In this document: piece after piece, positions 54,215 through 55,645 of the stretch
Layout of the letters: the number at the start of each line of letters is the position of its first letter
Position numbering within the stretch: the first letter of the stretch is position 1
NCBI RefSeq assembly: GCF_041053105.1
Contig: NZ_CP163444.1
Location: 6,076,001-6,140,000, forward strand
Length of the DNA stretch: 64,000 nt
Reading direction: 5' to 3'
Source: Streptomyces sp. R44
Lineage (GTDB): Bacteria > Actinomycetota > Actinomycetes > Streptomycetales > Streptomycetaceae
Notes under the pieces: model-generated
Told to the model about the DNA's origin: nothing
Seen by the model: only the letters and a program-made list of their open reading frames with translations
Databases searched by the model: none
Translations under genes and position numbers: made by a program

Positions 54215-54269
54215 CGGACAGCGGGTACTCTGGAAGGGCTCGTGGCGCGTGCGCTGCGGGCCCTTCCGT

Positions 54270-54291
54270 CGTCCTCGCCGCCGCGAGGACG
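54270..54291 (+). terminator. Small hairpin after cdsA
   Basis: CGTCCTCG pairs with CGAGGACG around CCGCCG. It is just upstream of the structured rlmN leader and could end cdsA transcripts in part. Confidence 0.45.
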
Positions 54292-54298
54292 GTCCAGT

Positions 54299-54378
54299 GA
54301 GGTCTCCTGGCTTCGGCATCGTGATGCCGCGCTCCCCGCCGTCGCGGGGATGCCAGACCTCGTGCCGTCTGAGGAGAC
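54299..54378 (+). promoter_or_regulatory. Riboswitch-like three-way junction leader of rlmN
   Basis: P1: GAGGTCT (54299-54305) with AGACCTC (54355-54361), extended by GGC/GCC past a CCT bulge. P2: CGGCAT-CGTG-ATGCCG (54314-54329). P3: TCCCCG-CCGTCG-CGGGGA (54333-54350). The alternative pairing GTCTCCT (54302-54308) with AGGAGAC (54372-54378) covers the rlmN Shine-Dalgarno and shares four bases with P1, so the two states exclude each other. No short leader peptide with its own stop was seen. Confidence 0.6.
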
Positions 54379-54386
54379 ACCCGATC

Positions 54387-55499
54387 GTGGCCCGTCCAGT
54401 GCCCGGAGAACTCACTTTCGTCGCCCCCCGCGGAGCCAAGAAGCCGCCGCGGCACCTGGCCGACCTCTCGCCCGCCGAGCGGAAGGAGGCCGTCGCCGCG
54501 ATCGGCGAGAAGCCGTTCCGCGCCAAGCAGCTTTCCACGCACTACTTCGCGCGGTACGCGCACGACCCCGCCGAGTGGACCGACATCCCGGCCGCCTCGC
54601 GGGAGAAGCTGGCCGGCGAGCTGCTGCCCGACCTGATGTCCGTGGTGCGGCACATCTCGTGCGACGACGACACCACCCGTAAGACCCTGTGGCGGCTGCA
54701 TGACGGCACGCTCGTGGAGTCCGTGCTCATGCGCTACCCGGACCGGGTGACCATGTGCATCTCCTCGCAGGCCGGCTGCGGCATGAACTGCCCGTTCTGC
54801 GCGACCGGGCAGGCGGGGCTCGACCGGAACCTGTCGACCGCCGAGATCGTGCACCAGATCGTGGACGGCATGCGTTCCCTGCGCGACGGGGAGGTGCCCG
54901 GGGGACCGGCGCGCCTTTCCAACATCGTGTTCATGGGCATGGGCGAGCCGCTCGCCAACTACAAGCGGGTCGTCGGCGCCATCCGGCGGCTCACGGACCC
55001 CGAGCCGGACGGGCTCGGGCTGTCGCAGCGCGGCATCACCGTCTCCACCGTCGGCCTCGTCCCCGCGATGCTGCGCTTCGCCGACGAGGGCTTCAAGTGC
55101 CGGCTCGCCGTCTCGCTGCACGCCCCGGACGACGAGCTCCGCGACACCCTCGTGCCCGTCAACACCCGCTGGAAGGTCCGCGAGGTCCTCGATGCGGCCT
55201 GGGAGTACGCGGAGAAGTCCGGGCGCCGGATCTCCATCGAGTACGCCCTCATCCGGGACATCAACGACCAGGCCTGGCGCGGCGACCTCCTCGGCCGCCT
55301 CCTCAAGGGCAAGCGGGTGCACGTCAACCTGATCCCGCTGAACCCGACGCCCGGCTCGAAGTGGACGGCCTCCCGCCCGGAGGACGAGAAGGCCTTCGTC
55401 GAGGCGATCGCCCGCCACGGCGTGCCGGTGACCGTGCGGGACACCCGCGGTCAGGAGATCGACGGTGCCTGTGGACAGCTCGCGGCCGCCGAGCGCTGA
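54387..55499 (+). CDS. rlmN: 23S rRNA (adenine(2503)-C(2))-methyltransferase
   Basis: RlmN is a radical-SAM enzyme methylating C2 of A2503 in the peptidyl-transferase centre and A37 of some tRNAs. The 370 residues show CGMNCPFC (about 133-140, the CX3CX2C iron-sulfur motif) and [14 protein letters not shown] (about 180-193). The C-terminal [11 protein letters not shown] contains the second catalytic cysteine. GTG 54387 ([11 protein letters not shown]) has GAGGAGA upstream and fits the conserved start; the frame is open back to 54249, but that stretch encodes the leader RNA. Confidence 0.95.
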
Positions 55500-55532
55500 C
55501 CTTGTAGTCTGAGCTCGAACACATCTCCATAT

Positions 55533-55626
55533 TCCGACAGGGGAGCGCCACAGCGCTGAGAGTGCGGTAACCGTAGACCGCAGACCCTCTGAACCTCGCC
55601 CAGGTCATTCTGGGTAGGAAGTTCGG
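55533..55626 (+). promoter_or_regulatory. TPP riboswitch (THI element)
   Basis: Hallmark THI-box segments are in order: GACAGGGGAGC, GCTGAGAGTGCGG, CCGCAGACCCTCTGAACCT and GGGTAGGAAGT. It binds thiamine pyrophosphate and turns off the downstream transport operon. It starts about 30 bp after rlmN, so the thi operon has its own promoter in or near the end of rlmN. Confidence 0.96.
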
Positions 55627-55645
55627 TCGTAACTCAAGCTGTTGC

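Follow-up and report, generated by a model that had tools for sequence, protein, structure and literature searches.

A probable, undescribed structured leader upstream of rlmN in some Streptomyces, not an established riboswitch

The rlmN gene of Streptomyces sp. R44 is probably preceded by an undescribed structured leader, which is not an established riboswitch. In the 64,000-nucleotide stretch of this genome that was analysed (the window) and among its relatives, the leader is marked by its position behind cdsA, its conservation and its specificity for one gene, with modest support for its base pairing. We hold with moderate confidence, on the basis of sequence comparison, that it is a folded leader which relatives can dispense with and which acts on translation, and that helix P1 would keep one strand away from the Shine-Dalgarno (SD) sequence and the start region of rlmN. 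The gap between cdsA and rlmN includes, from 5' to 3', a TACTCT box, the hairpins SL0 and SL1, the P1-P2-P3 module and the SD sequence:

54214: end of the stop codon of cdsA, upstream of rlmN
54226..54231, + strand: TACTCT box, probable -10 element of an rlmN promoter directly behind cdsA
54234..54265, + strand: SL0, a hairpin of 13 bp where the mRNA is predicted to begin
54270..54291, + strand: SL1 hairpin
54285-54289, + strand: GAGGA in the 3' arm of SL1, possibly serving as SD to the GTG of 54297
54297..54311, + strand: possible start of a short ORF, GTG AGG TCT CCT GGC (V-R-S-P-G), unproven
54299..54311, + strand: 5' strand of P1, GAGGTC(T), T-C-C bulge, TGGC, where conservation within the module is highest
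54314..54329, + strand: P2 hairpin, CGGCAT-CGTG-ATGCCG
54333..54350, + strand: P3 hairpin, TCCCCGC-CGTC-GCGGGGA
54352..54361, + strand: 3' strand of P1, GCCAGACCTC
54372-54376, + strand: AGGAG, the SD of rlmN, 10 nt upstream of its GTG
54372..54378, + strand: AGGAGAC, SD-side partner of a proposed 7-bp anti-SD helix
54387..55499, + strand: rlmN coding sequence (CDS), GTG start at 54387-54389 set by the SD position and comparison; product, 23S rRNA A2503 / tRNA A37 methyltransferase

The gene is taken to be rlmN from its naming in the preliminary description of this DNA and from a radical-SAM-type motif, rather than from a family search. According to the proposed mechanism, rlmN would be expressed from its own promoter located directly behind cdsA, giving a leader of about 150 nt that would start with SL0, continue with SL1 and end with the module, where P1 encloses P2 and P3. 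The module would be a lineage-specific, dispensable cis element, most likely acting at translation initiation. When P1 is formed, the strand GTGAGGTCTCCTGGC would be held away from the SD and from rlmN codons 5-9, leaving the start region open; once P1 comes apart, this strand would be free to lower initiation. RlmN is described as methylating A2503 of 23S rRNA and A37 of some tRNAs (PMC10336011), and A2503 as helping to relay nascent-peptide stalling signals (PMC10336011, citing Vazquez-Laslop 2010). If the leader regulates, it would constitute a simple system coupling the ribosome state to ribosome modification.

The transcription start of rlmN is predicted at about 54236-54240. Of the 61 distinct non-leaderless loci, 60 contain the TAC-CT box pattern, which none of the 93 leaderless ones has; in the 61st non-leaderless locus, L104, the box was recognised by eye. 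The -10 motif given for S. lividans is TAnnnT (PMC8079986). cdsA is located within 330 nt in all 61 non-leaderless regions versus 29 of the 93 leaderless-type ones. As P1 follows the TAC-CT box, it should be part of the mRNA, and transcription of the leader probably begins before this helix. The presence of P1 in the mRNA, on which the preliminary description depended, therefore has the predicted start in its favour, while a simple promoter scan of the window found no promoter for the leader. No conserved -35 element was seen among the upstream regions of the relatives.

SL0, which does not appear in the preliminary description, is the best-supported structure of the leader, with 99.5% of cells paired versus 85.9% under a tree-aware null (30 sequences; p = 0.0033, the floor of this test), although the value for double changes was 0.030 in one of the slid SL0 controls as well. 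It was probably derived from the terminator hairpin of cdsA. For SL1 the same kind of null gave p = 0.057 when pairing was scored and p = 0.047 when double changes were. Unguided RNAalifold recovered SL0 and SL1 from 30 leaders, most SL0 pairs being changed on both sides, and predicted no pair in P1-P2-P3, either for the module alone or within the 30 leaders.

The arms of P1 (GAGGTCT at 54299-54305, AGACCTC at 54355-54361) and the hairpins P2 and P3 are present in the window where they had been placed. Comparison of relatives modestly supports P1, P2 and P3 together as a conserved fold, which is probably real, with weaker support than SL0. In A5, where 60 distinct relatives were aligned by sequence only, the whole module exceeded the tree-aware null in pairing (p = 0.010) and double changes (p = 0.048). 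A4, an alignment fitted to the structure which, as expected, does better on every measure, gave 0.004 for both. None of the single helices fell below 0.05 on A5 (P1 0.093, P2 0.12, P3 0.15), and on neither alignment did an R-scape-like G-test, run with no positive control, find any of the 23 pairs significant. On A5 75.1% of cells pair, and the covariation score was reached by no shuffle or slide; double-changed pairs and pair types were unremarkable (151 and 494 of 500 shuffles as high, respectively). For P1 alone on A5, 16 of 500 shuffles reached the covariation score, and sliding by -1 gave almost the same value (0.099 vs 0.103). A MAFFT alignment of 30 sequences has 75.3% of cells paired and a covariation score reached by 1 of 500 shuffles, with more double-changed cells at a slide of +2 (34 vs 28). 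P2 cells are paired in 71.9% of cases (alignment A2), and one pair of P3 is C-G in 33 and U-A in 18 of the 60 sequences.

P1 also shows signs of co-adaptation between its arms. Its own partner beats swapped ones in 27 of 36 loci (p = 0.0002 with one representative each of 11 groups; median p 0.001, range 0.0007-0.0107, in 40 draws with 21 groups), the groups for these and the anti-SD comparisons having been set by eye. In locus L178 the lower P1 stem is kept with other bases.

The thermodynamic picture is mixed. The stretch 54280-54420 is no more stable than chance (z = -0.80; a fold at least as good is reached by 40 of 200 shuffles), while z equals -2.41 for the window element without the SD and -3.62 for the predicted full leader. 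Over 36 loci the mean z of the element relative to shuffles is -1.10, with negative values in 30. The fold predicted for this region of the window varies with the length of sequence supplied. The element alone is predicted to form the anti-SD helix, leaving the SD unpaired at 0.04. With 32 nt of CDS added, P1 falls to 0.00 and the anti-SD helix to 0.01; in the minimum free energy structure the partners of the strand are rlmN codons. With 110 nt of upstream sequence and 48 nt of CDS (L081, the window's locus), strand pairing is mixed: 0.30 per base with the SD, 0.16 with the CDS and 0.06 with the P1 side, compared with means over 62 loci of 0.06, 0.32 and 0.08, respectively.

Our reading of the region as a structured leader is based on the module-wide pairing, the P1 swaps, the substituted stem of L178, the stability in 30 of 36 loci and the occurrence of the module before rlmN in 53 of 392 genomes (see below). 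We counted against it the G-test, the non-significant single helices, the slides of P1 alone and the blank RNAalifold result, as well as the greater pairing of the strand with the CDS than with the P1 side, the groups set by eye and the absence of the module from many relatives.

The preliminary description had proposed a translational metabolite riboswitch with a P1-P2-P3 aptamer toggling against the 7-bp anti-SD helix. The arms of the latter, GTCTCCT (54302-54308) and AGGAGAC (54372-54378), can be seen in the sequence, and bases 54302-54305 are common to it and P1, so mutually exclusive arms do exist in the window; the fold predicted for the isolated element and the modest support for the module also suit this explanation. 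Yet the SD-side partner of each locus was better than swapped ones in only 15 of 36 loci (p = 0.067), pairing of the anti-SD helix on A5 gave 0.49 under the tree-aware null, and no alignment-based test that was run revealed a covariation excess for it. Only the group to which the window belongs and a small number of others have a long anti-SD match. These comparisons support neither the anti-SD helix as part of the conserved fold nor the on/off switch with the SD. Loci L007, L098 and L099 retain SL0, SL1 and P1 (39-42 bits) and have lost both P2 and P3, and some near relatives, of the SHORT type described below, do not have the module at all, which argues against a junction aptamer, as does the leaderless type of 93 of the 154 upstream regions. 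Nothing in the comparison points to a small-molecule ligand. A search of the window against Rfam with E up to 10 gave a sole overlap with the leader, a 16-bit chance match to MIR918 over SL0 (gathering score 268), and at gathering scores none of six relatives had a match on the leader, only a downstream TPP element in two. The earlier remark that no described element lies upstream of rlmN agrees with the lack of any Rfam family match. Taken together, a metabolite riboswitch appears very improbable here.

The TPP riboswitch-like element is located right after rlmN (55529-55638, + strand) and precedes a gene (55719-) whose product is a binding protein of transporter type. It scores 49.6 bits in the window, below the gathering score of 54.3, and the same place scores 72.5 and 70.1 bits in L019 and L107.

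The covariance model of the module, R2, was used to search 392 Streptomyces genomes at E <= 1e-4 and matched in 66 of them. Matches of at least 39 bits were found in 53 genomes, each followed by an rlmN start. The other 13 genomes had weaker matches of 32.0-36.6 bits; the two that were looked at are not the element, one being a locus without rlmN (G013) and the other CRISPR-like by eye (G221). Among 121 genomes of the family there were 19 matches at E <= 0.01: four relatives with more than 40 bits, all before rlmN and one of them in another genus (L179), and 15 further loci, none of which holds rlmN. The genome of the window itself has one strong match (89.5 bits), followed by one of 23.3 bits. 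Loci L178, L233, L234 and L235 match the model and lack the conserved strand. A pattern search found the element in 20 of 295 genomes, with 13 of the 20 places before rlmN and 7 elsewhere.

Some weak model matches (L182, L184, L186 and L192) fall, by eye, into CRISPR-like arrays whose repeats have CCCCGC...GCGGGG-like stems. We see no link of such repeats to rlmN and take them as a warning for searches that use hairpins of this kind in GC-rich genomes.

In all three model searches (genus, family and own genome) strong matches occur only before rlmN. Such gene specificity speaks against a metabolite riboswitch and would rather suit a protein-binding leader, for example one where RlmN binds the bulged P1 stem and represses its own mRNA, especially as P1 with its T-C-C bulge remains after the loss of P2 and P3. 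However, the T-C-C bulge is not kept in all loci and many relatives do without the leader, which leaves this explanation with a very slight probability.

The occurrence of the leader was traced in the regions upstream of rlmN of 80 named contigs, the best among 576 that were confirmed, and of further genomes of the genus, a sample that leans towards close relatives of the window's RlmN. These regions are of a leaderless type, with TCTGCGACACTGG directly before the ATG; of a SHORT type, where the SD directly follows a TAC-CT box and SL0, without SL1 and the whole module (L010, L097, L100, L104, L105, L113-L120, L122, L124, L126); of the window-like EL type; or of a few others (e.g., L006, L060, L145). 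Two exclusive 5' ends are seen for one gene: a leaderless-type promoter, found in 93 of 154 distinct upstream regions (L001-L170), or a TAC-CT box behind cdsA, found in 61. In 79 of the 93 leaderless loci the first ATG lies 9 nt after the box of their own, leaderless-type promoter, the shorter distances being partly due to an ATG inside the spacer. Many relatives thus appear to make rlmN mRNA without a leader, and the conserved P1-P2-P3 leader of the preliminary description holds for some Streptomyces only, being missing in many others. One genome, G168, has two equal-scoring rlmN copies about 9 kb apart (G168:C51:218704-219807 and 227601-228704), either a duplication or an assembly fault (genome contamination 6%).

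On a FastTree phylogeny of 128 rlmN sequences, labelled by pattern (L103 was labelled EL with a model match of only 12.8 bits), the leaderless label requires 24 changes, at least 10 of which are forced by strongly supported branches. The SHORT locus L104 and the EL locus L106 are sisters on this tree. Since the EL modules are alike across clades, repeated loss or exchange seems likelier than repeated invention. A switch between leaderless and structured forms that occurred at least 10 times within a sample drawn mostly from one genus constitutes a natural experiment on the role of a 5' leader.

This history also fits a passive leader, a module with little or no function whose fold and sequence are shared through descent and where P1 merely keeps an awkward stretch folded. 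Its repeated absence (the leaderless majority, the SHORT loci and the interchanges) and weak covariation are what such a leader would show. On the other hand, the strand TGAGRTCTCC is conserved while its flanks drift, the arms of P1 are co-adapted and the module pairs beyond the tree-aware null, so we regard a passive leader as unlikely, though not far-fetched. The strand GTGAGRTCTCCNGG is kept even where its lower P1 partner has decayed (L019, L035, L036, L128, L142).

Pairing of this strand with the coding sequence was considered as a cause of its conservation and rejected. Leader positions 54296-54311 pair with rlmN codons 5-9 at -21.6 kcal/mol in the window, but 69 of the 42,656 windows that were scanned do as well, and around codon 170 rlmN itself has a site that pairs better still (-22.4). 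Of the 58 loci with the GEL motif, 51 pair in this way at 10-13 of the 14 positions, 4 further loci with PGVL being left out. The strand motif gave a mean z of -1.62 against its own CDS (p < 0.05 in 26 of 62 loci), with z from -0.29 to 0.52 for control stretches. However, own codons pair no better than swapped ones (median p 0.87), leaderless genes are stricter (Gly is GGA in 77 of 77 versus 40 of 62 leadered genes) and variable codon positions are uncompensated by eye. Judging by the folding models, where it prevails in some ensembles, the pairing may still affect leader folding. The RlmN start motif PGELTF, near-constant elsewhere, reads PGVLTF in L035, L128, L129 and L131. Two other ideas were set aside: a hairpin CCNG...CNGG around the strand, seen by eye only, and a likeness to 23S helices 90-92, too short to be counted.

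The strand also overlaps the putative upstream ORF. An NTG triplet occupies its start position in 53 of 62 loci (GTG, ATG, CTG and TTG are all used), behind a G-rich stretch, and codons 2-5 vary mostly at third positions, with 8.0 changes on average versus 3.5 and 2.25 at the others (permutation p = 0.016, uncorrected for the choice of frame). A leader-peptide attenuator could explain this: a ribosome starting at GTG 54297 (V-R-S-P-G...) would decide by its position whether P1 forms. But 9 of the 62 loci have no start codon there, the ORF stands in the three frames relative to rlmN in 26, 20 and 16 loci, its stop and later peptide are not conserved (some ends run off short loci), no periodicity follows codon 5, and P1 can also explain which positions vary. 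The scatter of frames led us to reject an in-frame extension of RlmN as well. We therefore consider the attenuator quite unlikely; nevertheless, if P1 is regulated, the most plausible regulator, doubtful as it is, would be a ribosome on this putative ORF. In a narrower version, pausing on V-R-S-P-G from GTG 54297 would depend on the A2503 state, and the ribosome position would set P1 against pairing with the rlmN start. This seems highly improbable; if true, it would provide feedback on methylation of the peptidyl-transferase centre through the ribosome itself.

The titles and abstract openings of the papers found on an rlmN leader, its translational regulation and a Streptomyces rlmN riboswitch mention no rlmN leader, and the word rlmN is absent from the main texts, supplements aside, of PMC8079986 and PMC8780764. 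Judging by this part of the literature, control of rlmN expression seems to be little studied.

Comparison with known systems places our preferred reading, a structured and dispensable leader, among several classes of 5' regions. Like the Streptomyces translational riboswitches of Rfam (TPP, SAM-IV, cobalamin and others), it is a structured 5' leader with helices that possibly compete with the SD; unlike them, it has neither an Rfam match nor a supported anti-SD helix, its junction is lost in one group and the module is absent in many relatives. It shares with the erm attenuators of 23S rRNA methyltransferases, as described in PMC8274638, a short-ORF start overlapping a helix arm before a methyltransferase gene, whereas only the first five codons look conserved in the rlmN case, with no conserved stop or frame and no sign of induction. 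Leaderless mRNAs, which constitute 17% of primary starts in S. lividans according to PMC8079986, correspond to most of the sampled rlmN genes, while the window's copy is of the leadered type. The ligand-less actino-pnp and msiK leaders of Actinobacteria, as presented in PMC8079986, are likewise gene-specific conserved folded leaders of housekeeping genes; in contrast to them, the rlmN leader occurs only in scattered members of the genus and lacks an Rfam entry.
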